DNA of 64,000 bases from Zeus faber. Its lineage: Eukaryota; Chordata; Actinopteri; Zeiformes; Zeidae. The stretch is taken from assembly GCA_960531495.1 (NCBI GenBank), contig CAUIJY010000068.1:992001-1056000 (forward strand), written 5' to 3'. The position numbers were made by a program, and so were the translations under genes. The notes beneath the pieces were generated by a model. That model ran no database searches. It was not told the origin of the DNA and saw only the letters and a list, made by a program, of their open reading frames with translations. This document shows positions 24,853-64,000 of the stretch, one piece after another. Within the stretch, counting starts at the first letter, position 1; each line of letters starts with the position of its first letter.

Positions 24853-27800
24853 AAATTACGTGCAGTTTCATAAAAACCTGCATGGGTGGCAAACAAGGCA
24901 TTTTCAGGCAATTTAAAGACTGAAAGGATATTTTGAGTAAAGGTTTCTGTCATGACTCTGTAGGACCTGCTCAGATAGTGTAAATACTGTTATGAACTGA
25001 TTTGTAATGGGAAAGTACTGTTTGCAAAAGAGTTTTTGGCACATCTAACAAGTTTTTCTGAAATTACGAGCAGTTTCATAAAAACCTGCATGGGTGGCAA
25101 ACAAGGCATTTTCAGGCAATTTAAAGACTGAAAGGATGTTTTGAGAAAAGGTTTCTGTCATAACTCTCTAGGACCTGCTCAGATAGTGTAAATACTGTTA
25201 TGAACTGATTTGTAATGGGAAAGTATTGTTTGCAAAACAGTTTTTGGCACATCTAACAAGTTTTTCTGAAATTACGAGCATTTTCATAAAAACCTGCATG
25301 GATGGCAAACAAGGCATTTTCAGGCAATTTAAAGACTGAAAGAATGTTTTGAATAAAGGTTTCTGTCATGACTCTGTAGGAACTGCTCAGATAGTGTAAA
25401 TACTGTTATGAACTCATTTGTAATTGGAAAGTACTGTTTGCAAAATAATTTTTGGCACATCTAACAAGTTTTTCTGAAATTACAAGCACTTTCATAAAAA
25501 CCTGCATGGATGGCAAACAAGGCATTTTTAGGCAATTTAAAGACTGAAAGGATGTTTTGAGTAAAGGTTTCTGTCATGACTCTCTAGGACCTGCTCAGAT
25601 AGTGTAAATACTGTTATAAACTGGTTTGTAATGGGAAAGTACTGTTTGCAAAAGAGTTTTTGGCACATCTAACAAGTTTTTCTGAAATTACGTGCAGTTT
25701 CATAAAAACCTGCATGGGTGGCAAACAAGGCATTTTTAGGCAATTTAAAGACTGAAAGGATGTTTTGAGTAAAGGTTTCTGTCATGACTCTCTAGGACCT
25801 GCTCAGATAGTGTAAATACTGTTATGAACTGATTTGTAATGGGAAAGTATTGTTTGCAAAACAGTTTTTGGCACATCTAACAAGTTTTTCTGAAATTACA
25901 AGCATTTTCATAAAAACCTGCATGGATGGCAAACAAGGCATTTTCAGGCAATTTAAAGACTGAAAGAATGTTTTGAATAAAGGTTTCTGTCATGACTCTG
26001 TAGGAACTGCTCAGATAGTGTAAATACTGTTATGAACTCATTTGTAATTGGAAAGTACTGTTTGCAAAATAATTTTTGGCACATCTAACAAGTTTTTCTG
26101 AAATTACAAGCACTTTCATAAAAACCTGCATGGATGGCAAACAAGGCATTTTTAGGCAATTTAAAGACTGAAAGGATGTTTTGAGTAAAGGTTTCTGTCA
26201 TGACTCTCTAGGACCTGCTCAGATAGTGTAAATACTGTTGTGAACTGATTTGTAATGGGAAAGTACTGTTTGCAAAAGAGTTTTTGGCACATCTAACAAG
26301 TTTTTCTGAAATTACGAGCAGTTTCATAAAAACCTGCATGGGGGGCAAACATGGCATTTTCAGGCCATTTAAAGACTGAAAGGATGTTTTGAGTAAAGGT
26401 TTCTGTCATGACTCTCTAGGACTTAGTCAGATAGTGTAAATACTGTTATGAACTGATTTGTAATGGGAAAGTACTGTTTGCAAAACAGTTTTTGGCACAT
26501 CTAACAAGTTTTTCTGAAATTACGAGCAGTTTCATAAAAACCTGCTTGGGGGGCAAACATGGCATTTTCAGGCCATTTAAAGACTGAAAGGATGTTTTGA
26601 GTAAAGGTTTCTGTCATGACTCTCTAGGACTTGCTCAGATAGTGTAAATACTGTTATGAACTGATTTGTAATGGGAAAGTACTGTTTGCAAAACAGTTTT
26701 TGGCACATCTAACAAGTTTTTCTGAAATTACGTGCAGTTTCATAAAAACCTGCATGGATGGCAAACAAGGCATTTTCAGGAAATTTAAAGACCGAAAGAA
26801 TGTTTTGAGTAAAGGTTTCTGTCATGACTCTGTAGGAACTGCTCAGATAGTGTAAATACTGTTATGAACTGATTTGTAATGGGAAAGTACTGTTTGCAAA
26901 AGAGTTTTTGGCACATCTAACAAGTTTTTCTGAAATTACGTGCAGTTTCATAAAAACCTGCATGGGTGGCAAACAAGGCATTTTCAGGCAATTTAAAGAC
27001 TGAAAGGATATTTTGAGTAAAGGTTTCTGTCATGACTCTGTAGGACCTGCTCAGATAGTGTAAATACTGTTATGAACTGATTTGTAATGGGAAAGTACTG
27101 TTTGCAAAACAGTTTTTGGCACATCTAACAAGTTTTTCTGAAATTACGAGCAGTTTCATAAAAACCTGCTTGGGGGGCAAACATGGCATTTTCAGGCCAT
27201 TTAAAGACTGAAAGGATGTTTTGAGTAAAGGTTTCTGTCATGACTCTCTAGGACTTGCTCAGATAGTGTAAATACTGTTATGAACTGATTTGTAATGGGA
27301 AAGTACTGTTTGCAAAACAGTTTTTGGCACATCTAACAAGTTTTTCTGAAATTACGTGCAGTTTCATAAAAACCTGCATGGATGGCAAACAAGGCATTTT
27401 CAGGAAATTTAAAGACCGAAAGAATGTTTTGAGTAAAGGTTTCTGTCATGACTCTGTAGGAACTGCTCAGATAGTGTAAATACTGTTATGAACTGATTTG
27501 TAATGGGAAAGTACTGTTTGCAAAAGAGTTTTTGGCACATCTAACAAGTTTTTCTGAAATTACGTGCAGTTTCATAAAAACCTGCATGGGTGGCAAACAA
27601 GGCATTTTCAGGCAATTTAAAGACTGAAAGGATATTTTGAGTAAAGGTTTCTGTCATGACTCTGTAGGACCTGCTCAGATAGTGTAAATACTGTTATGAA
27701 CTGATTTGTAATGGGAAAGTACTGTTTGCAAAAGAGTTTTTGGCACATCTAACAAGTTTTTCTGAAATTACGAGCAGTTTCATAAAAACCTGCATGGGTG

Positions 27801-30800
27801 GCAAACAAGGCATTTTCAGGCAATTTAAAGACTGAAAGGATGTTTTGAGAAAAGGTTTCTGTCATAACTCTCTAGGACCTGCTCAGATAGTGTAAATACT
27901 GTTATGAACTGATTTGTAATGGGAAAGTATTGTTTGCAAAACAGTTTTTGGCACATCTAACAAGTTTTTCTGAAATTACGAGCATTTTCATAAAAACCTG
28001 CATGGATGGCAAACAAGGCATTTTCAGGCAATTTAAAGACTGAAAGAATGTTTTGAATAAAGGTTTCTGTCATGACTCTGTAGGAACTGCTCAGATAGTG
28101 TAAATACTGTTATGAACTCATTTGTAATTGGAAAGTACTGTTTGCAAAATAATTTTTGGCACATCTAACAAGTTTTTTTGAAATTACAAGCACTTTCATA
28201 AAAACCTGCATGGATGGCAAACAAGGCATTTTTAGGCAATTTAAAGACTGAAAGGATGTTTTGAGTAAAGGTTTCTGTCATGACTCTCTAGGACCTGCTC
28301 AGATAGTGTAAATACTGTTATAAACTGGTTTGTAATGGGAAAGTACTGTTTGCAAAAGAGTTTTTGGCACATCCAACAAGTTTTTCTGAAATTACGTGCA
28401 GTTTCATAAAAACCTGCATGGGTGGCAAACAAGGCATTTTTAGGCAATTTAAAGACTGAAAGGATGTTTTGAGTAAAGGTTTCTGTCATGACTCTCTAGG
28501 ACTTAGTCAGATAGTGTAAATACTGTTATGAACTGATTTGTAATGGGAAAGTACTGTTTGCAAAACAGTTTTTGGCACATCTAACAAGTTTTTCTGAAAT
28601 TACGAGCAGTTTCATAAAAACCTGCTTGGGGGGCAAACATGGCATTTTCAGGCCATTTAAAGACTGAAAGGATGTTTTGAGTAAAGGTTTCTGTCATGAC
28701 TCTCTAGGACTTGCTCAGATAGTGTAAATACTGTTATGAACTGATTTGTAATGGGAAAGTACTGTTTGCAAAAGAGTTTTTGGCACATCTAACAAGTTTT
28801 TCTGAAATTACGTGCAGTTTCATAAAAACCTGCATGGGTGGCAAACAAGGCATTTTCAGGCAATTTAAAGACTGAAAGGATATTTTGAGTAAAGGTTTCT
28901 GTCATGACTCTGTAGGACCTGCTCAGATAGTGTAAATACTGTTATGAACTGATTTGTAATGGGAAAGTACTGTTTGCAAAAGAGTTTTTGGCACATCTAA
29001 CAAGTTTTTCTGAAATTACGAGCAGTTTCATAAAAACCTGCATGGGGGGCAAACATGGCATTTTCAGGCCATTTAAAGACTGAAAGGATGTTTTGAGTAA
29101 AGGTTTCTGTCATGACTCTCTAGGACTTAGTCAGATAGTGTAAATACTGTTATGAACTGATTTGTAATGGGAAAGTACTGTTTGCAAAACAGTTTTTGGC
29201 ACATCTAACAAGTTTTTCTGAAATTACGAGCAGTTTCATAAAAACCTGCTTGGGGGGCAAACATGGCATTTTCAGGCCATTTAAAGACTGAAAGGATGTT
29301 TTGAGTAAAGGTTTCTGTCATGACTCTCTAGGACTTGCTCAGATAGTGTAAATACTGTTATGAACTGATTTGTAATGGGAAAGTACTGTTTGCAAAACAG
29401 TTTTTGGCACATCTAACAAGTTTTTCTGAAATTACGTGCAGTTTCATAAAAACCTGCATGGATGGCAAACAAGGCATTTTCAGGAAATTTAAAGACCGAA
29501 AGAATGTTTTGAGTAAAGGTTTCTGTCATGACTCTGTAGGAACTGCTCAGATAGTGTAAATACTGTTATGAACTGATTTGTAATGGGAAAGTACTGTTTG
29601 CAAAAGAGTTTTTGGCACATCTAACAAGTTTTTCTGAAATTACGTGCAGTTTCATAAAAACCTGCATGGGTGGCAAACAAGGCATTTTCAGGCAATTTAA
29701 AGACTGAAAGGATATTTTGAGTAAAGGTTTCTGTCATGACTCTGTAGGACCTGCTCAGATAGTGTAAATACTGTTATGAACTGATTTGTAATGGGAAAGT
29801 ACTGTTTGCAAAAGAGTTTTTGGCACATCTAACAAGTTTTTCTGAAATTACGAGCAGTTTCATAAAAACCTGCATGGGTGGCAAACAAGGCATTTTCAGG
29901 CAATTTAAAGACTGAAAGGATGTTTTGAGAAAAGGTTTCTGTCATAACTCTCTAGGACCTGCTCAGATAGTGTAAATACTGTTATGAACTGATTTGTAAT
30001 GGGAAAGTATTGTTTGCAAAACAGTTTTTGGCACATCTAACAAGTTTTTCTGAAATTACGAGCATTTTCATAAAAACCTGCATGGATGGCAAACAAGGCA
30101 TTTTCAGGCAATTTAAAGACTGAAAGAATGTTTTGAATAAAGGTTTCTGTCATGACTCTGTAGGAACTGCTCAGATAGTGTAAATACTGTTATGAACTCA
30201 TTTGTAATTGGAAAGTACTGTTTGCAAAATAATTTTTGGCACATCTAACAAGTTTTTCTGAAATTACAAGCACTTTCATAAAAACCTGCATGGATGGCAA
30301 ACAAGGCATTTTTAGGCAATTTAAAGACTGAAAGGATGTTTTGAGTAAAGGTTTCTGTCATGACTCTCTAGGACCTGCTCAGATAGTGTAAATACTGTTA
30401 TAAACTGGTTTGTAATGGGAAAGTACTGTTTGCAAAAGAGTTTTTGGCACATCTAACAAGTTTTTCTGAAATTACGTGCAGTTTCATAAAAACCTGCATG
30501 GGTGGCAAACAAGGCATTTTTAGGCAATTTAAAGACTGAAAGGATGTTTTGAGTAAAGGTTTCTGTCATGACTCTCTAGGACCTGCTCAGATAGTGTAAA
30601 TACTGTTATGAACTGATTTGTAATGGGAAAGTATTGTTTGCAAAACAGTTTTTGGCACATCTAACAAGTTTTTCTGAAATTACAAGCATTTTCATAAAAA
30701 CCTGCATGGATGGCAAACAAGGCATTTTCAGGCAATTTAAAGACTGAAAGAATGTTTTGAATAAAGGTTTCTGTCATGACTCTGTAGGAACTGCTCAGAT

Positions 30801-33800
30801 AGTGTAAATACTGTTATGAACTCATTTGTAATTGGAAAGTACTGTTTGCAAAATAATTTTTGGCACATCTAACAAGTTTTTCTGAAATTACAAGCACTTT
30901 CATAAAAACCTGCATGGATGGCAAACAAGGCATTTTTAGGCAATTTAAAGACTGAAAGGATGTTTTGAGTAAAGGTTTCTGTCATGACTCTCTAGGACCT
31001 GCTCAGATAGTGTAAATACTGTTGTGAACTGATTTGTAATGGGAAAGTACTGTTTGCAAAAGAGTTTTTGGCACATCTAACAAGTTTTTCTGAAATTACG
31101 AGCAGTTTCATAAAAACCTGCATGGGGGGCAAACATGGCATTTTCAGGCCATTTAAAGACTGAAAGGATGTTTTGAGTAAAGGTTTCTGTCATGACTCTC
31201 TAGGACTTAGTCAGATAGTGTAAATACTGTTATGAACTGATTTGTAATGGGAAAGTACTGTTTGCAAAACAGTTTTTGGCACATCTAACAAGTTTTTCTG
31301 AAATTACGAGCAGTTTCATAAAAACCTGCTTGGGGGGCAAACATGGCATTTTCAGGCCATTTAAAGACTGAAAGGATGTTTTGAGTAAAGGTTTCTGTCA
31401 TGACTCTCTAGGACTTGCTCAGATAGTGTAAATACTGTTATGAACTGATTTGTAATGGGAAAGTACTGTTTGCAAAACAGTTTTTGGCACATCTAACAAG
31501 TTTTTCTGAAATTACGTGCAGTTTCATAAAAACCTGCATGGATGGCAAACAAGGCATTTTCAGGAAATTTAAAGACCGAAAGAATGTTTTGAGTAAAGGT
31601 TTCTGTCATGACTCTGTAGGAACTGCTCAGATAGTGTAAATACTGTTATGAACTGATTTGTAATGGGAAAGTACTGTTTGCAAAAGAGTTTTTGGCACAT
31701 CTAACAAGTTTTTCTGAAATTACGTGCAGTTTCATAAAAACCTGCATGGGTGGCAAACAAGGCATTTTCAGGCAATTTAAAGACTGAAAGGATATTTTGA
31801 GTAAAGGTTTCTGTCATGACTCTGTAGGACCTGCTCAGATAGTGTAAATACTGTTATGAACTGATTTGTAATGGGAAAGTACTGTTTGCAAAAGAGTTTT
31901 TGGCACATCTAACAAGTTTTTCTGAAATTACGAGCAGTTTCATAAAAACCTGCATGGGTGGCAAACAAGGCATTTTCAGGCAATTTAAAGACTGAAAGGA
32001 TGTTTTGAGAAAAGGTTTCTGTCATAACTCTCTAGGACCTGCTCAGATAGTGTAAATACTGTTATGAACTGATTTGTAATGGGAAAGTATTGTTTGCAAA
32101 ACAGTTTTTGGCACATCTAACAAGTTTTTCTGAAATTACGAGCATTTTCATAAAAACCTGCATGGATGGCAAACAAGGCATTTTCAGGCAATTTAAAGAC
32201 TGAAAGAATGTTTTGAATAAAGGTTTCTGTCATGACTCTGTAGGAACTGCTCAGATAGTGTAAATACTGTTATGAACTCATTTGTAATTGGAAAGTACTG
32301 TTTGCAAAATAATTTTTGGCACATCTAACAAGTTTTTTTGAAATTACAAGCACTTTCATAAAAACCTGCATGGATGGCAAACAAGGCATTTTTAGGCAAT
32401 TTAAAGACTGAAAGGATGTTTTGAGTAAAGGTTTCTGTCATGACTCTCTAGGACCTGCTCAGATAGTGTAAATACTGTTATAAACTGGTTTGTAATGGGA
32501 AAGTACTGTTTGCAAAAGAGTTTTTGGCACATCCAACAAGTTTTTCTGAAATTACGTGCAGTTTCATAAAAACCTGCATGGGTGGCAAACAAGGCATTTT
32601 TAGGCAATTTAAAGACTGAAAGGATGTTTTGAGTAAAGGTTTCTGTCATGACTCTCTAGGACTTAGTCAGATAGTGTAAATACTGTTATGAACTGATTTG
32701 TAATGGGAAAGTACTGTTTGCAAAACAGTTTTTGGCACATCTAACAAGTTTTTCTGAAATTACGAGCAGTTTCATAAAAACCTGCTTGGGGGGCAAACAT
32801 GGCATTTTCAGGCCATTTAAAGACTGAAAGGATGTTTTGAGTAAAGGTTTCTGTCATGACTCTCTAGGACTTGCTCAGATAGTGTAAATACTGTTATGAA
32901 CTGATTTGTAATGGGAAAGTACTGTTTGCAAAAGAGTTTTTGGCACATCTAACAAGTTTTTCTGAAATTACGTGCAGTTTCATAAAAACCTGCATGGGTG
33001 GCAAACAAGGCATTTTCAGGCAATTTAAAGACTGAAAGGATATTTTGAGTAAAGGTTTCTGTCATGACTCTGTAGGACCTGCTCAGATAGTGTAAATACT
33101 GTTATGAACTGATTTGTAATGGGAAAGTACTGTTTGCAAAAGAGTTTTTGGCACATCTAACAAGTTTTTCTGAAATTACGAGCAGTTTCATAAAAACCTG
33201 CATGGGGGGCAAACATGGCATTTTCAGGCCATTTAAAGACTGAAAGGATGTTTTGATTAAAGGTTTCTGTCATGACTCTCTAGGACTTAGTCAGATAGTG
33301 TAAATACTGTTATGAACTGATTTGTAATGGGAAAGTACTGTTTGCAAAACAGTTTTTGGCACATCTAACAAGTTTTTCTGAAATTACGAGCAGTTTCATA
33401 AAAACCTGCTTGGGGGGCAAACATGGCATTTTCAGGCCATTTAAAGACTGAAAGGATGTTTTGAGTAAAGGTTTCTGTCATGACTCTCTAGGACTTGCTC
33501 AGATAGTGTAAATACTGTTATGAACTGATTTGTAATGGGAAAGTACTGTTTGCAAAACAGTTTTTGGCACATCTAACAAGTTTTTCTGAAATTACGTGCA
33601 GTTTCATAAAAACCTGCATGGATGGCAAACAAGGCATTTTCAGGAAATTTAAAGACCGAAAGAATGTTTTGAGTAAAGGTTTCTGTCATGACTCTGTAGG
33701 AACTGCTCAGATAGTGTAAATACTGTTATGAACTGATTTGTAATGGGAAAGTACTGTTTGCAAAAGAGTTTTTGGCACATCTAACAAGTTTTTCTGAAAT

Positions 33801-46316: not shown

Positions 46317-49300
46317 GTGGCAAACAAGGCATTTTCAGGCAATTTAAAGACTGAAAGGATGTTTTGAGTAAAGGTTTCTGTCATAACTCTGTAGGAACTG
46401 CTCAGATAGTGTAAATACTGTTATGAACTCATTTGTAATGGGAAAGTACTGTTTGCAAAACAGTTTTTGGCACATCTAACAAGTTTTTCTGAAATTACAA
46501 GCACTTTCATAAATACCTGCATGGATGGCAAACAAGGCATTTTATGCAATTTAAAGACTGAAAGGATGTTTTGAGTAAAGGTTTCTGTCATGACTGTCTA
46601 GGACCTGCTCAGATAGTGTAAATACTGTTATGAACTGATTTGTAATGGGAAAGTACTGTTTGCAAAACAGTTTTTGGCACATCTAACAAGTTTTTCTGAA
46701 ATTACAAGCATTTTCATAAAAACCTGCATGGATGGCAAACAAGGCATTTTCAGGAAATTTAAAGACCGAAAGAATGTTTTGAGTAAAGGTTTCTGTCATG
46801 ACTCTGTAGGAACTGCTCAGATAGTGTAAATACTGTTATGAACTCATTTGTAATGGGAAAGTACTGTTTGCAGAACAGTTTTTGGCACATCTTACAATTT
46901 TTTTCTGAAATTACGAGCATTTTCATAAAAACCTGCATGGATGGCAAACAAGGCATTTTCAGGCAATTTAAAGACTGAAAGGATGTTTTGAGTAAAAGTT
47001 TCTGTCATGACTCTGTAGGACCTGCTCAGATAGTGTAAATACTGTTATGAACTGATTTGTAATGTGAAAGTACTGTTTGCAAAAGAGTTTTTGGCACATC
47101 TAACAAGTTTTTCTGAAATTACGAGCAGTTTCATAAAAACCTGCATGGGGGGCAAACATGGCATTTTCAGGCAATTTAAAGACTGAAAGGATGTTTTGAG
47201 TAAAGGTTTCTGTCATGACTCTCTAGGACCTGCTCAGATAGTGTAAATACTGTTATGAACTGATTTGTAATGGGAAAGTACTGTTTGCAAAACAGTTTTT
47301 GGCACATCTAAGAAGTTTTTCTGAAATTACAAGCACTTTCATAAAAACCTGCATGGATGGCAAACAAGGCATTTTATGCAATTTAAAGACTGAAAGGATG
47401 TTTTGAGTAAAGGTTTCTGTCATGACTGTCTAGGACCTGCTCAGATAGTGTAAATACTGTTATGAACTGATTTGTAATGGGAAAGTACTGTTTGCAAAAG
47501 AGTTTTTGGCACATCTAACAAGTTTTTCTGAAATTACAAGCACTTTCATAAAAACCTGCATGGGTGGCAAACAAGGCATTTTCAGGCAATTTAAAGACTG
47601 AAAGGATGTTTTGAGTAAAGGTTTCTGTCATAACTCTGTAGGAACTGCTCAGATAGTGTAAATACTGTTATGAACTCATTTGTAATGGGAAAGTACTGTT
47701 TGCAGAACAGTGTTTGGCACATCTAACAATTTTTTTCTGAAATTACGAGCAGTTCCATAAAAAACTGCATGGATGGCAAACAAGGACTTTTCAGGCAATT
47801 TAAAGACTGAAAGGATGTTTTGAGTAAAGGTTTCTGTCATGACTCTCTAGGACCTGCTCAGATAGTGTAAATACTGTTATGAACTGATTTGTAATGGGAA
47901 AGTACTGTTTGCAAAATAGTTTTTGGCACATCTAACAAGTTTTTCTGAAATTACGAGCAGTTCCATAAAAAACTGCATGGGTGGCAAACAAGGCATTTTC
48001 AGGCAATTTAAAGACTGAAAGGATGTTTTGAGTAAAGGTTTCTGTCATAACTCTGTAGGAACTGCTCAGATAGTGTAAATACTGTTATGAACTCATTTGT
48101 AATGGGAAAGTACTGTTTGCAGAACAGTTTTTGGCACATCTAACAAGTTTTTCTGAAATTATGAGCATTTTCATAAAAACCTGCATGGATGGCAAACAAG
48201 GCATTTTTAGGAAATTTATAGACCGAAAGAATGTTTTGAGTAAAGGTTTCTGTCATGACTCTGTAGGAACTGCTCAGATAGTGTAAATACTGTTATGAAC
48301 TCATTTGTAATGGGAAAGTACTGTTTGCAAAAGAGTTTTTGGCACATCTAACAAGTTTTTCTGAAATTATGAGCATTTTCATAAAAACCTGCATTGATGG
48401 CAAACAAGGCATTTTCAGGCAATTTGAAGACTGAAAGGATGTTTTGAGTAAATGTTTCTGTCATGACTCTCTAGGACTTGCTCAGATAGTGTAAATACTG
48501 TTATGAACTGATTTGTAATGGGAAATTACTGTTTGCAAAACAGTTTTTTGCACATCTAACAAGTTTTTCTGAAATTACAAGCATTTTCATAAAAACCTGC
48601 ATGGATGGCAAACAAGGCATTTTCAGGCAATTTAAAGACTGAAAGGATGTTTTGAGTAAAGGTTTCTGTCATAAATCTGTAGGAACTGCTCAGATAGTGT
48701 AAATACTGTTATGAACTCATTTGTAATGGGAAAGTACTGTTTGCAGAACAGTTTTTGGCACATCTAACAAGTTTTTCTGAAATTACGAGCATTTTCATAA
48801 AAACCTGCATGGATGGCAAACAAGGCATTTTCAGGCAATTTAAAGACTGAAAGGATGTTTTGAGTAAAGGTTTCTGTCATAAATCTGTAGGAACTGCTCA
48901 GATAGTGTAAATACTGTTATGAACTCATTTGTAATGGGAAAGTACTGTTTGCAGAACAGTTTTTGGCACATCTAACAATTTTTTTCTGAAATTACGAGCA
49001 TTTTCATTAAAAACTGCATGGATGGCAAACAAGGCATTTTCAGGCAATTTAAAGACTGAAAGGATGTTTTGAGTAAAGGTTTCTGTCATAACTCTGTAGG
49101 AACTGCTCAGATAGTGTAAATACTGTTATGAACTCATTTGTAATGGGAAAGTACTGTTTGCAGAACAGTTTTTGGCACATCTAACAAGTTTTTCTGAAAT
49201 TATGAGCATTTTCATAAAAACCTGCATTGATGGCAAACAAGGCATTTTCAGGCAATTTGAAGACTGAAAGGATGTTTTGAGTAAAGGTTTCTGTCATGAC

Positions 49301-52030
49301 TCTCTAGGACTTGCTCCGATAGTGTAAATACTGTTATGAACTGATTTGTAATGGGAAAGTACTGTTTGCAAAACAGTTTTTTGCACATCTAACAAGTTTT
49401 TCTGAAATTACAAGCATTTTCATAAAAACCTGCATGGATGGCAAACAAGGCATTTTCAGGCAATTTAAAGATTGAAAGGATGTTTTGAGTAAAGGTTTCT
49501 GTCATAAATCTGTAGGAACTGCTCAGATAGTGTAAATACTGTTATGAACTCATTTGTAATGGGAAAGTACTGTTTGCAGAACAGTTTTTGGCACATCTAA
49601 CATTTTTTTTCTGAAATTACGAGCATTTTCATAAAAAACTGCATGGATGGCAAACAAGGCATTTTCAGGAAATTTAAAGACTGAAAGGCTGTTTTGAGTA
49701 AAGGTTTCTGTCATGACTCTCTAGGACTTGCTCAGATAGTGTAAATACTGTTATGAACTGATTTGTAATGGGAAAGTATTGTTTGCAAAACAGTTTTTGG
49801 CACATCTAACAAGTTTTTCTGAAATTACAAGCATTTGCATAAAAACCTGCATGGATGGCAAACAAGGCATTTTCAGGCAATTTAAAGCCTGAAAGGATGT
49901 TTTGAGTAAAGGTTTCTGTCATAACTCTGTAGGAACTGCTCAGATAGTGTAAATACTGTTATGAACTCATTTGTAATAGGAAAGTACTGTTTGCAGAACA
50001 GTTTTTGGCACATCTAACAATTTTTTTCTGAAATTACGAGCAGTTTCATAAAAAACTGCATGGATGGCAAACAAGGACTTTTCAGGCAATTTAAAGACTG
50101 AAAGGATGTTTTGAGTAAAGGTTTCTGTCATGACTCTCTAGGACCTGCTCAGATAGTGTAAATACTGTTATGAACTCATTTGTAATGGGAAAGTACTGTT
50201 TGCAAAAGAGTTTTTGGCACATCTAACAAGTTTTTCTGAAATTATGAGCATTTTCATAAAAACCTGCATTGATGGCAAACAAGGCATTTTCAGGCAATTT
50301 AAAGACTGAAAGGATGTTTTGAGTAAAGGTTTCTGTCATAAATCTGTAGGAACTGCTCAGATAGTGTAAATACTGTTATGAACTCATTTGTAATGGGAAA
50401 GTACTGTTTGCAGAACAGTTTTTGGCACATCTAACAATTTTTTTCTGAAATTACGAGCATTTTCATAAAAAACTGCATGGATGGCAAACAAGGCATTTTC
50501 AGGAAATTTAAAGACTGAAAGGCTGTTTTGAGTAAAGGTTTCTGTCATGACTCTCTAGGACTTGCTCAGATAGTGTAAATACTGTAATGAACTGATTTGT
50601 AATGGGAAAGTATTGTTTGCAAAACAGTTTTTGGCACATCCAACAAGTTTTTTGAAATTACAAGCATTTTCATAAAAACCTGCATGGATGGCAAACAAGG
50701 CATTTTCAGGCAATTTAAAGACTGAAAGAATGTTTTGAATAAAGGTTTCTGTCATGACTCTGTAGGAACTGCTCAGATAGTGTAAATACTGTTATGAACT
50801 CATTTGTAATTGGAAAGTACTGTTTGCAAAATCGTTTTTGGCACATCTAACAAGTTTTTCTGAAATTATGAGCATTTTCATAAAAACCTGCATGGATGGC
50901 AAACAAGGCATTTTCAGGCAATTTAAAGACTGAAAGGATGTTTTGAGTAAAGGTTTCTGTCATAAATCTGTAGGAACTGCTCAGATAGTGTAAATACTGT
51001 TATGAACTCATTTGTAATGGGAAAGTACTGTTTGCAGAACAGTTTTTGGCACATCTAACATTTTTTTTCTGAAATTACGAGCATTTTCATAAAAAACTGC
51101 ATGGATGGCAAACAAGGCATTTTCAGGAAATTTAAAGACTGAAAGGCTGTTTTGAGTAAAGGTTTCTGTCATGACTCTCTAGGACTTGCTCAGATAGTGT
51201 AAATACTGTTATGAACTGATTTGTAATGGGAAAGTATTGTTTGCAAAACAGTTTTTGGCACATCTAACAAGTTTTTCTGAAATTACAAGCATTTGCATAA
51301 AAACCTGCATGGATGGCAAACAAGGCATTTTCAGGCAATTTAAAGACTGAAAGAATGTTTTGAATAAAGGTTTCTGTCATGACTCTGTAGGAACTGCTCA
51401 GATAGTGTAAATACTGTTATGAACTCATTTGTAATTGGAAAGTACTGTTTGCAAAATCGTTTTTGGCACATCTAACAAGTTTTTCTGAAATTATGAGCAT
51501 TTTCATAAAAACCTGCATGGATGGCAAACAAGGCATTTTCAGGCAATTTGAAGACTGAAAGGATGTTTTGAGTAAAGGTTTCTGTCATCACTCTGTAGGA
51601 CCTGCTCAGATAGTGTAAATACTGTTATGAACTCATTTGTATTGGGAAAGTACTGTTTGCAAAAGAGTTTTTGGCACATCTATCAAGTTTTTTCTGAAAT
51701 TACGAGCATTTTCTTAAAAAACTGCATGGATGGCAAACAAGGCATTTTCAGGCAATTTAAAGACTGAAAGAATGTTTTGAATAAAGGTTTCTGTCATGAC
51801 TCTGTAGGAACTGCTCAGATAGTGTAAATACTGTTATGAACTCATTTGTAATTGGAAAGTACTGTTTGCAAAATAGTTTTTGGCACATCTAACAAGTTTT
51901 TCTGAAATTATGAGCATTTTCATAAAAACCTGCATGGATGGCAAACAAGGCATTTTCAGGCAATTTAAAGACTGAAAGGATGTTTTGAGTAAAGGTTTCT
52001 GTCATAAATCTGTAGGAACTGCTCAGATAG

Positions 52031-53280
52031 TGTAAATACTGTTATGAACTCATTTGTATTGGGAAAGTACTGTTTGCAAAAGAGTTTTTGGCACATCTAA
52101 CAAGTTTTTTCTGAAATTACGAGCATTTTCATAAAAAACTGCATGGATGGCAAACAAGGCATTTTCAGGAAATTTAAAGACTGAAAGGCTGTTTTGAGTA
52201 AAGGTTTCTGTCATGACTCTCTAGGACCTTCTCAGATAGTGTAAATACTGTTATGAACTGATTTGTAATGGGAAAGTATTGTTTGCAAAACAGTTTTTGG
52301 CACATCTAACAAGTTTTTCTGAAATTACAAGCATTTGCATAAAAACCTGCATGGATGGCAAACAAGGCATTTTCAGGCAATTTAAAGACTGAAAGAATGT
52401 TTTGAATAAAGGTTTCTGTCATGACTCTGTAGGAACTGCTCAGATAGTGTAAATACTGTTATGAACTCATTTGTAATTGGAAAGTACTGTTTGCAAAATA
52501 GTTTTTGGCACATCTAACAAGTTTTTCTGAAATTATGAGCATTTTCATAAAAACCTGCATGGATGGCAAACAAGGCATTTTCAGGCAATTTGAAGACTGA
52601 AAGGATGTTTTGAGTAAAGGTTTCTGTCATAAATCTGTAGGAACTGCTCAGATAGTGTAAATACTGTTATGAACTCATTTGTATTGGGAAAGTACTGTTT
52701 GCAAAAGAGTTTTTGGCACATCTAACAAGTTTTTTCTGAAATTACGAGCATTTTCATAAAAAACTGCATGGATGGCAAACAAGGCATTTTCAGGAAATTT
52801 AAAGACTGAAAGGCTGTTTTGAGTAAAGGTTTCTGTCATGACTCTCTAGGACCTTCTCAGATAGTGTAAATACTGTTATGAACTGATTTGTAATGGGAAA
52901 GTATTGTTTGCAAAACAGTTTTTGGCACATCTAACAAGTTTTTCTGAAATTACAAGCATTTGCATAAAAACCTGCATGGATGGCAAACAAGGCATTTTCA
53001 GGCAATTTAAAGACTGAAAGAATGTTTTGAATAAAGGTTTCTGTCATGACTCTGTAGGAACTGCTCAGATAGTGTAAATACTGTTATGAACTCATTTGTA
53101 ATTGGAAAGTACTGTTTGCAAAATAGTTTTTGGCACATCTAACAAGTTTTTCTGAAATTATGAGCATTTTCATAAAAACCTGCATGGATGGCAAACAAGG
53201 CATTTTCAGGCAATTTGAAGACTGAAAGGATGTTTTGAGTAAAGGTTTCTGTCATGACTCTGTAGGACCTGCTCAGATAG
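52031..53280 (+). repeat. 625-bp trimer higher-order repeat, two copies
   Basis: Units at 52,031-52,655 and 52,656-53,280. Each has a TGTATTGGG/AAAAGAG monomer with ACAAGTTTTTTCTG (209), a GTATTG/ACAG monomer with CAAGCATTTGCAT, and a TAATTGG/ATAG monomer with TATGAGC. The rare GGACCTTCTCAG marks both copies (52,222 and 52,847). Composition differs from the 625-bp trimer near 10,200, so trimers of the same length formed more than once. Confidence 0.85.
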
Positions 53281-55363
53281 TGTAAATACTGTTATGAACT
53301 CATTTGTATTGGGAAAGTTCTGTTTGCAAAATAGTTTTTGGCACATCTAACAAGTTTTTTCTGAAAATACGAGCATTTTCATAAAAAACTGCATGGATGG
53401 CAAACAAGGCATTTTGAGGCAATTTAAAGACTGAAAGGATGTTTTGAGTAAAGGTTTCTGTCATAACTCTGTAGGAACTGCTCAGATAGTGTAAATACTG
53501 TTATGAACTGATTTGTAATGGGAAAGTACAGTTTGCAAAAGAGTTTTTGGCACATCTAACAAGTTTTTCTAAAATTACGTGCAGTTTCATAAAAACCTGC
53601 ATGGGTGGCAAACAAGGCATTTTCAGGCAATTTAAAGACTGAAAGGATGTTTTGAGTAAAGGTTTCTGTCATAACTCTGTAGGAACTGCTCAGATAGTGT
53701 AAATACTGTTATGAACTCATTTGTAATGGGAAAGTACTGTTTGCAGAACAGTTTTTGGCACATCTAACAAGTTTTTCTGAAATTACAAGCATTTGCATAA
53801 AAACCTGCATGGATGGCAAACAAGGCATTTTCAGGCAATTTAAAGACTGAAAGAATGTTTTGAATAAAGGTTTCTGTCATGACTCTGTAGGAACTGCTCA
53901 GATAGTGTAAATACTGTTATGAACTCATTTGTAATTGGAAAGTACTGTTTGCAAAATAGTTTTTGGCACATCTAACAAGTTTTTCTGAAATTATGAGCAT
54001 TTTCATAAAAACCTGCATGGATGGCAAACAAGGCATTTTCAGGCAATTTGAAGACTGAAAGGATGTTTTGAGTAAAGGTTTCTGTCATGACTCTGTAGGA
54101 CCTGCTCAGATAGTGTAAATACTGTTATGAACTCATTTGTATTGGGAAAGTTCTGTTTGCAAAATAGTTTTTGGCACATCTAACAAGTTTTTTCTGAAAA
54201 TACGAGCATTTTCATAAAAAACTGCATGGATGGCAAACAAGGCATTTTGAGGCAATTTAAAGACTGAAAGGATGTTTTGAGTAAAGGTTTCTGTCATAAC
54301 TCTGTAGGAACTGCTCAGATAGTGTAAATACTGTTATGAACTGATTTGTAATGGGAAAGTACAGTTTGCAAAAGAGTTTTTGGCACATCTAACAAGTTTT
54401 TCTAAAATTACGTGCAGTTTCATAAAAACCTGCATGGGTGGCAAACAAGGCATTTTCAGGCAATTTAAAGACTGAAAGGATGTTTTGAGTAAAGGTTTCT
54501 GTCATAACTCTGTAGGAACTGCTCAGATAGTGTAAATACTGTTATGAACTCATTTGTAATGGGAAAGTACTGTTTGCAGAACAGTTTTTGGCACATCTAA
54601 CAAGTTTTTCTGAAATTACAAGCATTTGCATAAAAACCTGCATGGATGGCAAACAAGGCATTTTCAGGCAATTTAAAGACTGAAAGAATGTTTTGAATAA
54701 AGGTTTCTGTCATGACTCTGTAGGAACTGCTCAGATAGTGTAAATACTGTTATGAACTCATTTGTAATTGGAAAGTACTGTTTGCAAAATAGTTTTTGGC
54801 ACATCTAACAAGTTTTTCTGAAATTATGAGCATTTTCATAAAAACCTGCATGGATGGCAAACAAGGCATTTTCAGGCAATTTGAAGACTGAAAGGATGTT
54901 TTGAGTAAAGGTTTCTGTCATGACTCTGTAGGACCTGCTCAGATAGTGTAAATACTGTTATGAACTCATTTGTATTGGGAAAGTTCTGTTTGCAAAATAG
55001 TTTTTGGCACATCTAACAAGTTTTTTCTGAAAATACGAGCATTTTCATAAAAAACTGCATGGATGGCAAACAAGGCATTTTGAGGCAATTTAAAGACTGA
55101 AAGGATGTTTTGAGTAAAGGTTTCTGTCATAACTCTGTAGGAACTGCTCAGATAGTGTAAATACTGTTATGAACTGATTTGTAATGGGAAAGTACAGTTT
55201 GCAAAAGAGTTTTTGGCACATCTAACAAGTTTTTCTAAAATTACGTGCAGTTTCATAAAAACCTGCATGGGTGGCAAACAAGGCATTTTCAGGCAATTTA
55301 AAGACTGAAAGGATGTTTTGAGTAAAGGTTTCTGTCATAACTCTGTAGGAACTGCTCAGATAG
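53281..55363 (+). repeat. 833-bp tetramer higher-order repeat, two and a half copies
   Basis: Units start at 53,281, 54,114 and 54,947. Each has a GGGAAAGTTCTG monomer with CTGAAAATACGAGC (209) and GCATTTTGAGGC, a GTACAGTTTGC monomer with TCTAAAATTACG, a GCAGAACAG/CAAGCATTTGCAT hybrid, and a TATGAGC monomer with GGCAATTTGAAG. The third unit breaks off after two monomers near 55,363. Two of its four monomers also occur in the preceding 625-bp trimer, so the tetramer probably grew from the trimer by adding a new pair. Confidence 0.85.
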
Positions 55364-56313
55364 TGTAAATACTGTTATGAACTCATTTGTAATGGGAAAG
55401 TACTGTTTGCAGAACAGTTTTTGGCACATCTAACAATTTTTTTCTGAAATTACGAGCAGTTCCATAAAAAACTGCATGGATGGCAAACAAGGACTTTTCA
55501 GGCAATTTAAAGACTGAAAGGATGTTTTGAGTAAAGGTTTCTGTCATGACTCTCTAGGACCTGCTCAGATAGTGTAAATACTGTTATGAACTGATTTGTA
55601 ATGGGAAAGTACTGTTTGCAAAATAGTTTTTGGCACATCTAACAAGTTTTTCTGAAATTACGTGCAGTTTCATAAAAACCTGCATGGGTGGCAAACAAGG
55701 CATTTTCAGGCAATTTAAAGACTGAAAGGATGTTTTGAGTAAAGGTTTCTGTCATAACTCTGTAGGAACTGCTCAGATAGTGTAAATACTGTTATGAACT
55801 CATTTGTAATGGGAAAGTACTGTTTGCAGAACAGTTTTTGGCACATCTAAAAAAAATTTTCTGAAATTACGAGCAGTTCCATAAAAAACTGCATGGATGG
55901 CAAACAAGGACTTTTCAGGCAATTTAAAGACTGAAAGGATGTTTTGAGTAAAGGTTTCTGTCATGACTCTCTAGGACCTGCTCAGATAGTGTAAATACTG
56001 TTATGAACTGATTTGTAATGGGAAAGTACTGTTTGCAGAACAGCTTTTGGCACATCTAACATTTTTTTTCTGAAATTACGAGCATTTTCATTAAAAACTG
56101 CATGGATGGCAAACAAGGCATTTTCAGGCAATTTAAAGACTGAAAGGATGTTTTGAGTAAAGGTTTCTGTCATAACTCTGTAGGAACTGCTCAGATAGTG
56201 TAAATACTGTTATGAACTCATTTGTAATGGGAAAGTACTGTTTGCAGAACAGTTTTTGGCACATCTAACAATTTTTTCTGAAATTACGAGCAGTTTCATA
56301 AAAAACTGCATGG
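55364..56313 (+). repeat. Diverged monomers at the end of block copy 1
   Basis: About four and a half monomers rich in GCAGAACAG with CAGTTCCATAAAAAACTGC and AAGGACTTTTC. One has an unusual A8T4 run (55,849-55,860) in place of AACAAT followed by T6. Another has CAGCTTTTGG near 56,041. The equivalent of this stretch in copy 2 lies beyond the window. Confidence 0.7.
55841..55863. other. A8T4 run replacing the usual T-tract
   Basis: After GCACATCT the sequence reads A8 then T4 before CTG; sister monomers have AACAA followed by T7. Monomer length is unchanged, but four neighbouring bases differ and all became A. I saw no second copy. It may be a clustered mutation by template switching at a homopolymer or a base-calling error. 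Confidence 0.7.
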
Positions 56314-59300
56314 ATGGCAAACAAGGCATTTTCAGGCAATTTAAAGACTGAAAGGATGTTTTGAGTAAAGGTTTCTGTCATAACTCTGTAGGAACTGCTC
56401 AGATAGTGTAAATACTGTTATGAACTCATTTGTAATGGGAAAGTACTGTTTGCAAAACAGTTTTTGGCACATCTAACAAGTTTTTCTGAAATTACAAGCA
56501 CTTTCATAAATACCTGCATGGATGGCAAACAAGGCATTTTATGCAATTTAAAGACTGAAAGGATGTTTTGAGTAAAGGTTTCTGTCATGACTGTCTAGGA
56601 CCTGCTCAGATAGTGTAAATACTGTTATGAACTGATTTGTAATGGGAAAGTACTGTTTGCAAAACAGTTTTTGGCACATCTAACAAGTTTTTCTGAAATT
56701 ACAAGCATTTTCATAAAAACCTGCATGGATGGCAAACAAGGCATTTTCAGGAAATTTAAAGACCGAAAGAATGTTTTGAGTAAAGGTTTCTGTCATGACT
56801 CTGTAGGAACTGCTCAGATAGTGTAAATACTGTTATGAACTCATTTGTAATGGGAAAGTACTGTTTGCAGAACAGTTTTTGGCACATCTTACAATTTTTT
56901 TCTGAAATTACGAGCATTTTCATAAAAACCTGCATGGATGGCAAACAAGGCATTTTCAGGCAATTTAAAGACTGAAAGGATGTTTTGAGTAAAAGTTTCT
57001 GTCATGACTCTGTAGGACCTGCTCAGATAGTGTAAATACTGTTATGAACTGATTTGTAATGTGAAAGTACTGTTTGCAAAAGAGTTTTTGGCACATCTAA
57101 CAAGTTTTTCTGAAATTACGAGCAGTTTCATAAAAACCTGCATGGGGGGCAAACATGGCATTTTCAGGCAATTTAAAGACTGAAAGGATGTTTTGAGTAA
57201 AGGTTTCTGTCATGACTCTCTAGGACCTGCTCAGATAGTGTAAATACTGTTATGAACTGATTTGTAATGGGAAAGTACTGTTTGCAAAACAGTTTTTGGC
57301 ACATCTAAGAAGTTTTTCTGAAATTACAAGCACTTTCATAAAAACCTGCATGGATGGCAAACAAGGCATTTTATGCAATTTAAAGACTGAAAGGATGTTT
57401 TGAGTAAAGGTTTCTGTCATGACTGTCTAGGACCTGCTCAGATAGTGTAAATACTGTTATGAACTGATTTGTAATGGGAAAGTACTGTTTGCAAAAGAGT
57501 TTTTGGCACATCTAACAAGTTTTTCTGAAATTACAAGCACTTTCATAAAAACCTGCATGGGTGGCAAACAAGGCATTTTCAGGCAATTTAAAGACTGAAA
57601 GGATGTTTTGAGTAAAGGTTTCTGTCATAACTCTGTAGGAACTGCTCAGATAGTGTAAATACTGTTATGAACTCATTTGTAATGGGAAAGTACTGTTTGC
57701 AGAACAGTGTTTGGCACATCTAACAATTTTTTTCTGAAATTACGAGCAGTTCCATAAAAAACTGCATGGATGGCAAACAAGGACTTTTCAGGCAATTTAA
57801 AGACTGAAAGGATGTTTTGAGTAAAGGTTTCTGTCATGACTCTCTAGGACCTGCTCAGATAGTGTAAATACTGTTATGAACTGATTTGTAATGGGAAAGT
57901 ACTGTTTGCAAAATAGTTTTTGGCACATCTAACAAGTTTTTCTGAAATTACGAGCAGTTCCATAAAAAACTGCATGGGTGGCAAACAAGGCATTTTCAGG
58001 CAATTTAAAGACTGAAAGGATGTTTTGAGTAAAGGTTTCTGTCATAACTCTGTAGGAACTGCTCAGATAGTGTAAATACTGTTATGAACTCATTTGTAAT
58101 GGGAAAGTACTGTTTGCAGAACAGTTTTTGGCACATCTAACAAGTTTTTCTGAAATTATGAGCATTTTCATAAAAACCTGCATGGATGGCAAACAAGGCA
58201 TTTTTAGGAAATTTATAGACCGAAAGAATGTTTTGAGTAAAGGTTTCTGTCATGACTCTGTAGGAACTGCTCAGATAGTGTAAATACTGTTATGAACTCA
58301 TTTGTAATGGGAAAGTACTGTTTGCAAAAGAGTTTTTGGCACATCTAACAAGTTTTTCTGAAATTATGAGCATTTCCATAAAAACCTGCATTGATGGCAA
58401 ACAAGGCATTTTCAGGCAATTTGAAGACTGAAAGGATGTTTTGAGTAAAGGTTTCTGTCATGACTCTCTAGGACTTGCTCAGATAGTGTAAATACTGTTA
58501 TGAACTGATTTGTAATGGGAAATTACTGTTTGCAAAACAGTTTTTTGCACATCTAACAAGTTTTTCTGAAATTACAAGCATTTTCATAAAAACCTGCATG
58601 GATGGCAAACAAGGCATTTTCAGGCAATTTAAAGACTGAAAGGATGTTTTGAGTAAAGGTTTCTGTCATAAATCTGTAGGAACTGCTCAGATAGTGTAAA
58701 TACTGTTATGAACTCATTTGTAATGGGAAAGTACTGTTTGCAGAACAGTTTTTGGCACATCTAACAAGTTTTTCTGAAATTACGAGCATTTTCATAAAAA
58801 CCTGCATGGATGGCAAACAAGGCATTTTCAGGCAATTTAAAGACTGAAAGGATGTTTTGAGTAAAGGTTTCTGTCATAAATCTGTAGGAACTGCTCAGAT
58901 AGTGTAAATACTGTTATGAACTCATTTGTAATGGGAAAGTACTGTTTGCAGAACAGTTTTTGGCACATCTAACAATTTTTTTCTGAAATTACGAGCATTT
59001 TCATTAAAAACTGCATGGATGGCAAACAAGGCATTTTCAGGCAATTTAAAGACTGAAAGGATGTTTTGAGTAAAGGTTTCTGTCATAACTCTGTAGGAAC
59101 TGCTCAGATAGTGTAAATACTGTTATGAACTCATTTGTAATGGGAAAGTACTGTTTGCAGAACAGTTTTTGGCACATCTAACAAGTTTTTCTGAAATTAT
59201 GAGCATTTTCATAAAAACCTGCATTGATGGCAAACAAGGCATTTTCAGGCAATTTGAAGACTGAAAGGATGTTTTGAGTAAAGGTTTCTGTCATGACTCT

Positions 59301-61610
59301 CTAGGACTTGCTCCGATAGTGTAAATACTGTTATGAACTGATTTGTAATGGGAAAGTACTGTTTGCAAAACAGTTTTTTGCACATCTAACAAGTTTTTCT
59401 GAAATTACAAGCATTTTCATAAAAACCTGCATGGATGGCAAACAAGGCATTTTCAGGCAATTTAAAGATTGAAAGGATGTTTTGAGTAAAGGTTTCTGTC
59501 ATAAATCTGTAGGAACTGCTCAGATAGTGTAAATACTGTTATGAACTCATTTGTAATGGGAAAGTACTGTTTGCAGAACAGTTTTTGGCACATCTAACAT
59601 TTTTTTTCTGAAATTACGAGCATTTTCATAAAAAACTGCATGGATGGCAAACAAGGCATTTTCAGGAAATTTAAAGACTGAAAGGCTGTTTTGAGTAAAG
59701 GTTTCTGTCATGACTCTCTAGGACTTGCTCAGATAGTGTAAATACTGTTATGAACTGATTTGTAATGGGAAAGTATTGTTTGCAAAACAGTTTTTGGCAC
59801 ATCTAACAAGTTTTTCTGAAATTACAAGCATTTGCATAAAAACCTGCATGGATGGCAAACAAGGCATTTTCAGGCAATTTAAAGCCTGAAAGGATGTTTT
59901 GAGTAAAGGTTTCTGTCATAACTCTGTAGGAACTGCTCAGATAGTGTAAATACTGTTATGAACTCATTTGTAATAGGAAAGTACTGTTTGCAGAACAGTT
60001 TTTGGCACATCTAACAATTTTTTTCTGAAATTACGAGCATTTTCATAAAAAACTGCATGGATGGCAAACAAGGCATTTTCAGGAAATTTAAAGACTGAAA
60101 GGCTGTTTTGAGTAAAGGTTTCTGTCATGACTCTCTAGGACTTGCTCAGATAGTGTAAATACTGTAATGAACTGATTTGTAATGGGAAAGTATTGTTTGC
60201 AAAACAGTTTTTGGCACATCCAACAAGTTTTTTGAAATTACAAGCATTTTCATAAAAACCTGCATGGATGGCAAACAAGGCATTTTCAGGCAATTTAAAG
60301 ACTGAAAGAATGTTTTGAATAAAGGTTTCTGTCATGACTCTGTAGGAACTGCTCAGATAGTGTAAATACTGTTATGAACTCATTTGTAATTGGAAAGTAC
60401 TGTTTGCAAAATCGTTTTTGGCACATCTAACAAGTTTTTCTGAAATTATGAGCATTTTCATAAAAACCTGCATGGATGGCAAACAAGGCATTTTCAGGCA
60501 ATTTAAAGACTGAAAGGATGTTTTGAGTAAAGGTTTCTGTCATAAATCTGTAGGAACTGCTCAGATAGTGTAAATACTGTTATGAACTCATTTGTAATGG
60601 GAAAGTACTGTTTGCAGAACAGTTTTTGGCACATCTAACATTTTTTTTCTGAAATTACGAGCATTTTCATAAAAAACTGCATGGATGGCAAACAAGGCAT
60701 TTTCAGGAAATTTAAAGACTAAAAGGCTGTTTTGAGTAAAGGTTTCTGTCATGACTCTCTAGGACTTGCTCAGATAGTGTAAATACTGTTATGAACTGAT
60801 TTGTAATGGGAAAGTATTGTTTGCAAAACAGTTTTTGGCACATCTAACAAGTTTTTCTGAAATTACAAGCATTTGCATAAAAACCTGCATGGATGGCAAA
60901 CAAGGCATTTTCAGGCAATTTAAAGACTGAAAGAATGTTTTGAATAAAGGTTTCTGTCATGACTCTGTAGGAACTGCTCAGATAGTGTAAATACTGTTAT
61001 GAACTCATTTGTAATTGGAAAGTACTGTTTGCAAAATCGTTTTTGGCACATCTAACAAGTTTTTCTGAAATTATGAGCATTTTCATAAAAACCTGCATGG
61101 ATGGCAAACAAGGCATTTTCAGGCAATTTGAAGACTGAAAGGATGTTTTGAGTAAAGGTTTCTGTCATCACTCTGTAGGACCTGCTCAGATAGTGTAAAT
61201 ACTGTTATGAACTCATTTGTATTGGGAAAGTACTGTTTGCAAAAGAGTTTTTGGCACATCTATCAAGTTTTTTCTGAAATTACGAGCATTTTCTTAAAAA
61301 ACTGCATGGATGGCAAACAAGGCATTTTCAGGCAATTTAAAGACTGAAAGAATGTTTTGAATAAAGGTTTCTGTCATGACTCTGTAGGAACTGCTCAGAT
61401 AGTGTAAATACTGTTATGAACTCATTTGTAATTGGAAAGTACTGTTTGCAAAATAGTTTTTGGCACATCTAACAAGTTTTTCTGAAATTATGAGCATTTT
61501 CATAAAAACCTGCATGGATGGCAAACAAGGCATTTTCAGGCAATTTAAAGACTGAAAGGATGTTTTGAGTAAAGGTTTCTGTCATAAATCTGTAGGAACT
61601 GCTCAGATAG

Positions 61611-62860
61611 TGTAAATACTGTTATGAACTCATTTGTATTGGGAAAGTACTGTTTGCAAAAGAGTTTTTGGCACATCTAACAAGTTTTTTCTGAAATTAC
61701 GAGCATTTTCATAAAAAACTGCATGGATGGCAAACAAGGCATTTTCAGGAAATTTAAAGACTGAAAGGCTGTTTTGAGTAAAGGTTTCTGTCATGACTCT
61801 CTAGGACCTTCTCAGATAGTGTAAATACTGTTATGAACTGATTTGTAATGGGAAAGTATTGTTTGCAAAACAGTTTTTGGCACATCTAACAAGTTTTTCT
61901 GAAATTACAAGCATTTGCATAAAAACCTGCATGGATGGCAAACAAGGCATTTTCAGGCAATTTAAAGACTGAAAGAATGTTTTGAATAAAGGTTTCTGTC
62001 ATGACTCTGTAGGAACTGCTCAGATAGTGTAAATACTGTTATGAACTCATTTGTAATTGGAAAGTACTGTTTGCAAAATAGTTTTTGGCACATCTAACAA
62101 GTTTTTCTGAAATTATGAGCATTTTCATAAAAACCTGCATGGATGGCAAACAAGGCATTTTCAGGCAATTTGAAGACTGAAAGGATGTTTTGAGTAAAGG
62201 TTTCTGTCATAAATCTGTAGGAACTGCTCAGATAGTGTAAATACTGTTATGAACTCATTTGTATTGGGAAAGTACTGTTTGCAAAAGAGTTTTTGGCACA
62301 TCTAACAAGTTTTTTCTGAAATTACGAGCATTTTCATAAAAAACTGCATGGATGGCAAACAAGGCATTTTCAGGAAATTTAAAGACTGAAAGGCTGTTTT
62401 GAGTAAAGGTTTCTGTCATGACTCTCTAGGACCTTCTCAGATAGTGTAAATACTGTTATGAACTGATTTGTAATGGGAAAGTATTGTTTGCAAAACAGTT
62501 TTTGGCACATCTAACAAGTTTTTCTGAAATTACAAGCATTTGCATAAAAACCTGCATGGATGGCAAACAAGGCATTTTCAGGCAATTTAAAGACTGAAAG
62601 AATGTTTTGAATAAAGGTTTCTGTCATGACTCTGTAGGAACTGCTCAGATAGTGTAAATACTGTTATGAACTCATTTGTAATTGGAAAGTACTGTTTGCA
62701 AAATAGTTTTTGGCACATCTAACAAGTTTTTCTGAAATTATGAGCATTTTCATAAAAACCTGCATGGATGGCAAACAAGGCATTTTCAGGCAATTTGAAG
62801 ACTGAAAGGATGTTTTGAGTAAAGGTTTCTGTCATGACTCTGTAGGACCTGCTCAGATAG
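61611..62860 (+). repeat. 625-bp trimer higher-order repeat in block copy 2
   Basis: This is the copy of 52,031-53,280 displaced by 9,580 bp, with GGACCTTCTCAG at 61,802 and 62,427. I noticed no difference between the two pairs of trimers, so the trimer doubled before the large block was duplicated. Confidence 0.85.
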
Positions 62861-64000
62861 TGTAAATACTGTTATGAACTCATTTGTATTGGGAAAGTTC
62901 TGTTTGCAAAATAGTTTTTGGCACATCTAACAAGTTTTTTCTGAAAATACGAGCATTTTCATAAAAAACTGCATGGATGGCAAACAAGGCATTTTGAGGC
63001 AATTTAAAGACTGAAAGGATGTTTTGAGTAAAGGTTTCTGTCATAACTCTGTAGGAACTGCTCAGATAGTGTAAATACTGTTATGAACTGATTTGTAATG
63101 GGAAAGTACAGTTTGCAAAAGAGTTTTTGGCACATCTAACAAGTTTTTCTAAAATTACGTGCAGTTTCATAAAAACCTGCATGGGTGGCAAACAAGGCAT
63201 TTTCAGGCAATTTAAAGACTGAAAGGATGTTTTGAGTAAAGGTTTCTGTCATAACTCTGTAGGAACTGCTCAGATAGTGTAAATACTGTTATGAACTCAT
63301 TTGTAATGGGAAAGTACTGTTTGCAGAACAGTTTTTGGCACATCTAACAAGTTTTTCTGAAATTACAAGCATTTGCATAAAAACCTGCATGGATGGCAAA
63401 CAAGGCATTTTCAGGCAATTTAAAGACTGAAAGAATGTTTTGAATAAAGGTTTCTGTCATGACTCTGTAGGAACTGCTCAGATAGTGTAAATACTGTTAT
63501 GAACTCATTTGTAATTGGAAAGTACTGTTTGCAAAATAGTTTTTGGCACATCTAACAAGTTTTTCTGAAATTATGAGCATTTTCATAAAAACCTGCATGG
63601 ATGGCAAACAAGGCATTTTCAGGCAATTTGAAGACTGAAAGGATGTTTTGAGTAAAGGTTTCTGTCATGACTCTGTAGGACCTGCTCAGATAGTGTAAAT
63701 ACTGTTATGAACTCATTTGTATTGGGAAAGTTCTGTTTGCAAAATAGTTTTTGGCACATCTAACAAGTTTTTTCTGAAAATACGAGCATTTTCATAAAAA
63801 ACTGCATGGATGGCAAACAAGGCATTTTGAGGCAATTTAAAGACTGAAAGGATGTTTTGAGTAAAGGTTTCTGTCATAACTCTGTAGGAACTGCTCAGAT
63901 AGTGTAAATACTGTTATGAACTGATTTGTAATGGGAAAGTACAGTTTGCAAAAGAGTTTTTGGCACATCTAACAAGTTTTTCTAAAATTACGTGCAGTTT
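62861..64000 (+). repeat. 833-bp tetramer in block copy 2, cut by the window
   Basis: This is the copy of 53,281-54,420. One full unit is at 62,861-63,693 and a second begins at 63,694. CTGAAAATAC is seen at 62,941 and 63,774, again 833 bp apart. The last monomer start is 63,903 and only 98 bp of it are inside the window, ending in CGTGCAGTTT. Confidence 0.85.

Follow-up and report, generated by a model that had tools for sequence, protein, structure and literature searches.

A probable recent tandem duplication of 48 monomers in a megabase-scale 208-bp satellite array of Zeus faber

The window, i.e., the whole 64,000-bp stretch of DNA analysed here, corresponds to positions 992,001-1,056,000 of contig C77 (2.63 Mb) in a Zeus faber genome of 803 Mb and 153 contigs. 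A sequence-only reading had noticed that rare markers in its last part recur at exactly 9,997 bp and then at exactly 9,580 bp, and had proposed a very recent tandem duplication of a 48-monomer block. The locus raises the question of whether a satellite array can grow by units of tens of monomers at once, and by which route such a unit would be copied.

The satellite array and its genomic setting

The whole window is composed of one satellite:

1-64,000, plus strand: 208-bp satellite array (TRF: period 208, 307.5 copies, 94% matches)

It contains 307 full monomers of 207-209 bp, all in one orientation, and 132 of them are distinct. The mean pairwise difference among these 307 monomers was 11.08 in 209 aligned columns, i.e., about 5%. 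When the flanks were added (264 kb in total), the same satellite was found throughout in the same orientation, and N was absent. Because all of the 1,267 monomers in the 264 kb were within 206-211 bp (1,267/1,267), no out-of-phase joints were seen there. Samples of 600 bases taken along the contig showed the satellite in 15 of 20 cases, from base 1 to 1,650,600, and the remaining five, from 1,800,001 onward, were other sequence. The contig begins within the array, whose span of at least 1.65 Mb was sampled, continuous reading being confined to the 264 kb. A long head-to-tail array of one monomer was thus found, which is satellite DNA by definition. The samples at 1,800,001 and 2,000,001, past the array, start with a GAAA-type simple repeat.

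A satellite 34-mer, searched with at most 2 mismatches, matched the genome 6,771 times in forward and 76 times in reverse orientation. Among the matches listed were the contigs C77, C17, C95, and C10, i.e., at least 4 of the 153. C17 (31.65 Mb) has the satellite close to its start, and C10 includes copies on the minus strand, with a changed base in the motif and a spacing that is often about 414 bp.

In the alignment of the 307 monomers, columns 50, 94, and 189 (0-based) showed a strong split between two or three bases. Column 50 sits within a short consensus inverted repeat, CTGTTT-GCA-AAACAG, which is broken in 148 of the 307 monomers. The DNA fold of a single monomer was not unusual (z = -0.16). 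The CpG observed/expected ratio was 0.135 in the 264 kb, and such a low value suggests a methylated genome. Twelve ORFs of at least 80 aa were predicted, each of 82 aa on the minus strand between 11,802 and 42,848, and none was found within the duplicated block.

No match was obtained in Rfam at gathering thresholds or between the satellite and phage sequences. The exact satellite 20-mer was absent from viral and genome contig collections, from which the window's own genome is possibly excluded. In the titles and abstract openings of the open-licence papers listed (30 of 184 in the largest search), no description of the 208-bp satellite was found, and none of the open-licence papers searched contained two of six monomer 12-mers.

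The duplicated block and its later changes

The two copies of the block were delimited as follows:

46,318-56,314, plus strand: copy 1 of the block (9,997 bp, 48 monomers; fixed-offset comparison)
56,315-64,000 in the window, on to 65,060, plus strand: copy 2 of the block (8,746 bp in total; fixed-offset comparison)

All counts between copy 1 and copy 2 rest on fixed-offset comparisons, including DNA beyond 64,000. At an offset of +9,997, the copies agreed from 46,318 to 50,042 with two mismatches (48,379 T/C; 48,453 T/G). At +9,580, they agreed from 50,396 to 54,603 with one mismatch (51,141 G/A). After 54,603 and up to 56,091, the offset was +8,747, with one tetramer fewer and three substitutions (55,856; 56,062; 56,080). 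Following a 1-bp deletion, the offset of +8,746 was free of mismatches to 56,326. In total, the copies are separated by six substitutions, one 1-bp deletion, and the 417 bp and 833 bp that are absent from copy 2, which gives its length (9,997 - 417 - 833 - 1 = 8,746). The 42 monomers retained by both copies follow a single order in a single phase.

These comparisons reproduced both marker spacings, i.e., the shift between them is 417 bp or two monomers, and the three single-base differences that had been counted over about 7.7 kb are exactly those at 48,379, 48,453, and 51,141. The proposed 9,997-bp unit of 48 monomers stood, but its start had to be moved from 46,317 to 46,318, since 46,317 mismatches. 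Both ends of the duplication are now located, copy 2 ending at 65,060. The segment 54,421-56,313, whose recurrence beyond 64,000 had been left to be checked, has its counterpart in copy 2, minus one tetramer. The event can be called very recent in relative terms, as six substitutions over 8,746 aligned bases amount to 0.07%. An adjacent copy in the same orientation, matching at both ends, makes the block a tandem (segmental) duplication in the assembled sequence.

The point at which the copies are joined was narrowed to a short tract:

56,315-56,326, plus strand: junction identity tract of 12 bp, within the chimeric monomer 56,200-56,407 (mismatch bounds)

The exchange point is confined to these 12 bp because the last mismatch on the left is at 46,317 and the first on the right is at 56,327. 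It is placed 115-126 bases into the monomer beginning at 56,200, where the block end is joined to the block start in register. Of the 11 columns that distinguish its two parents, the junction monomer, an exact chimera, departs from one parent at 6 and from the other at 5.

Four features record changes inside the copies:

49,979-50,459, plus strand: region of the 417-bp (two-monomer) segment absent from copy 2 (ambiguous breakpoints 49,979-50,042 and 50,396-50,459)
59,946-60,154, plus strand: chimeric monomer at the two-monomer loss in copy 2 (identical monomer in copy 3 at 65,362)
53,074-55,573, plus strand: nested tetramers, in three rounds in copy 1 (the last round closing with a different monomer) and in two rounds each in copies 2 and 3 (monomer strings, 833-bp shift)
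59,789-64,000 in the window, plus strand: 26-monomer (5,416-bp) unit 59,789-65,204, re-duplicated (sequence comparison)

The breakpoint of the 417-bp change is ambiguous over 64 bp. Three copy-1 monomers, at 49,949, 50,158, and 50,366, are represented by one copy-2 monomer at 59,946, which is composed of the left of the first and the right of the third. A recent duplication of a dimer within copy 1 does not account for the 417 bp, because copy-1 monomers two units apart near this place differ at 7-13 columns, and the 417 bp preceding the segment differ from it at 17 places. The same differences favour reading the change as a loss in copy 2. The tetramer count may have changed in either direction, through an extra round acquired by copy 1 or a round lost from copy 2.

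Beyond the window, a third copy extends from 65,205 to about 71,040-71,073 as a tandem repeat of the right part of copy 2. It carries 416 extra bp next to a cluster of about five or six mismatches, and a global alignment of copy 1 with copy 3 is unreliable, i.e., the aligned stretches have no common end. Copy 3 shares the chimera and the tetramer count of copy 2. At the copy-2 changes 60,721, 64,603, and 64,827 and at the 1-bp deletion, it is the same as copy 1. Only copy 1 carries the substitution at 56,062, and those at 48,379 and 48,453 fall outside the extent of copy 3. The simplest order of events would be the 48-mer duplication, then the two-monomer loss and the tetramer change, then the 26-mer duplication, and finally the later substitutions. 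The order holds if the 417-bp change was indeed a loss.

The block compared with the rest of the array

Within the 264 kb, pairs of 40-monomer blocks taken over the full range of lags (n = 753,377, overlapping and related pairs included) showed a mean of 437 differences with an sd of 39. Only 4 of the 753,377 pairs had at most 20 differences. They were at lag 42, and at every other lag even the closest pair had more than 100 differences. The 48-mer pair is invisible in this fixed-lag test because monomer indels break the lag. When the order of monomers was shuffled (n = 200), the longest run with at most one difference per monomer was 4, whereas the pieces of the duplication gave runs of 19, 9, 7, and 6.

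The resemblance of the copies would also be found if the 9,997-bp unit were a true higher-order repeat (HOR) with many copies elsewhere, two of which happen to be in the window. Parts of the block do appear again, at 65-71 kb and at 75-85 kb. However, eight of the nine monomers at 46,411-48,282 match exactly only their copy-2 counterpart within the 264 kb, and the ninth has 5 matches. The window shows no periodicity at lag 48, where the mean difference is 10.22 (overall mean, 11.08), a value higher than those at lags 3, 4, and 10. With two full copies only in the 264 kb and no dominant lag in the window, the 48-mer does not form an HOR array there, and such an origin is considered very improbable.

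Duplications of other sizes are common in the same DNA. The 264 kb contained 240 runs of at least 5 monomers with no more than 2 differences each, of which 55 were tandem-like (run at least half of the lag) and had lags between 4 and 43 monomers. Under stricter criteria, 39 clean tandem runs with lags of 4 to 42 monomers were retained in the 264 kb. These runs are not independent, i.e., several copy one another. The largest clean run, a 42-mer of 8,744 bp, shows 0 differences in 41 monomer pairs. In window coordinates, the pair spans -92,315 to about -74,790, i.e., C77 899,685 to about 917,210, and is probably younger than the 48-mer duplication. In the window itself, tandem duplications were found at 14,441-24,860 (25 monomers, 5,202 bp, 2 differences) and 22,267-31,893 (23 monomers, 4,784 bp, 1 difference), together with 43-monomer, 10-monomer, and 20-monomer spacings.

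The 48-mer is the longest unit among the tandem events found in these 264 kb of an array of at least 1.65 Mb. Nevertheless, the event is not exceptional in the array and is one of many. The earlier suggestion that amplification units can reach tens of monomers is well founded, as the 48-mer, the 42-mer, and the 25- and 23-monomer runs all are of such size. The accompanying statement that these units lie far beyond the nested tetramers and trimers overstated the contrast, since the sizes are continuous from small to large (10, 20, 23, 25, 42, 43).

The copies could also have been produced in the assembly, when two haplotypes or two passes of a graph loop were joined end to end. The difference of 0.07% and the whole-monomer indels would also fit allelic haplotypes, and the contig starts inside the array, hence the assembly is difficult. 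Against such an artefact, the joint has just 12 bp in common with the alternative path. A false overlap join normally requires far more shared sequence. The 264 kb are free of N, many further duplications are found nearby, and copies 1 and 2 each have private differences. In addition, copy 3 has the chimera of copy 2 and lacks its private changes, which is expected of successive real duplications. An artefact of this kind, with a false join at 56,315, is accordingly rated improbable.

Repair route and growth of the array

We consider it very probable that the block is a real and recent head-to-tail duplication of 48 monomers in a megabase-scale 208-bp array, made by homologous out-of-register repair. 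The junction preserves the monomer phase and lies in an identity tract between homologous monomers. Preserved phase and joints in identity tracts therefore point to homology-directed repair out of register. In the proposed course, a break or a stalled fork within the array would be repaired from a wrong but homologous monomer 48 units off, on the sister chromatid or the homologue. The repair would proceed by unequal crossing over or by out-of-register break-induced replication (BIR). Resolution would take place in the 12-bp identity between monomers about 5% divergent, which would keep the monomer phase. Similar events would later have removed two monomers from copy 2, shifted the tetramer count in one copy, and re-duplicated the right 26 monomers. 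No selected function is needed for the explanation.

That the copies were made by BIR and not by reciprocal unequal crossing over is given slightly less than an even chance. In the excerpted text of a review, unequal exchange and BIR are presented as two models of satellite HOR growth, and complex nested HOR structures are argued to be creatable by BIR (PMC8997354). Both nested tetramers and re-duplication in series are seen in the block. However, the end products of BIR are identical to those of unequal crossing over, and the same final sequence can be left by unequal crossing over, by BIR, or by a copy excised as a circle and then reinserted. Unequal crossing over and BIR would thus not be separable on the present data, and BIR is one form of the repair proposed above and does not compete with it.

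The length of junction tracts was also compared with that expected under uniform crossover. The 18 events comprised 17 of the 39 clean runs and the 9,997 event, which was added by hand, and the choice was post hoc. The 22 excluded runs had negative or >208-bp tracts, were duplicates of one event, or, in one case, ran off the data; -38,544 (tract 163) was excluded without good reason. The mean tract of the 18 chosen events was 66.9 bp versus 48.3 bp expected (one-sided P = 0.037), and restoring -38,544 and -52,076 gave P = 0.013 and 0.004. The excess of long tracts stems from small duplications. The five events of at least 4 kb had a mean tract of 38.0 versus 44.5 expected (P = 0.51), and the 12-bp tract of the 48-mer junction falls below the 32 bp of the size-biased expectation for that joint. 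Therefore, tract length gives no support for homologous repair in large events, the 48-mer included. The crossover weight per 26-bp bin of the monomer ranged from 1.12 to 4.03 in the 18 events. An intra-monomer crossover hotspot is not claimed, as the tract borders sit at variable columns regardless.

A comparable case, which may be regarded as a close published precedent, is the alpha satellite of human chromosome 21. According to the excerpted report, it has a two-copy 52mer HOR, with copies 0.2% apart, among shorter HORs (PMC12385485). Both cases comprise two copies of about fifty monomers with low divergence, and both, as far as the excerpt of that report goes, were reported without raw read-level validation. 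The excerpt gives monomers of about 171 bp, a mean divergence of 17.7% within the unit, and two complete copies for the 52mer (PMC12385485), whereas the present monomers are 208 bp and about 5% apart, and copy 2 is without six monomers.

On the orangutan Y chromosome, a 58mer superHOR is described in excerpt with 67 copies and 0.25% divergence between canonical copies (PMC12428378). Its unit of tens of monomers, its variants by whole monomer rows, and its very low divergence resemble the present block. However, it forms a 67-copy array, whereas two full copies and a partial third were found here. The HOR growth models, as excerpted, likewise include in-register duplications and deletions of monomer sets, and nesting (PMC8997354). 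Those models are generic, whereas the 48-mer case is one particular array known from its sequence only. For humans, the excerpted source documents HOR amplification that was both recent and saltatory (PMC11062924).

Since the 48-mer duplication, about four whole-monomer changes have taken place, i.e., the 417-bp loss, the tetramer change, the 26-mer duplication, and the 416-bp gain. The point changes between copies 1 and 2 are six substitutions and one 1-bp deletion, a count that excludes the copy-3 cluster of about five mismatches. Large rearrangements are thus about as frequent as point changes in this small copy family.

The event itself is ordinary and expected behaviour of satellite DNA. 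Its meaning is in the record, which is a clean and nearly mutation-free one of satellite array growth, in which both borders, the chimera at the junction, and the subsequent edits can be placed within a few bases. With a monomer divergence of about 5% and no dominating HOR, single events are separable, and the size spectrum and relative rates are measurable. We suggest, tentatively and at less than even confidence, that large rearrangements accumulate in this array about as fast as point mutations, and that kilobase-scale duplications of broad sizes, without a preferred HOR length, may rebuild it within a few substitutions per 10 kb.
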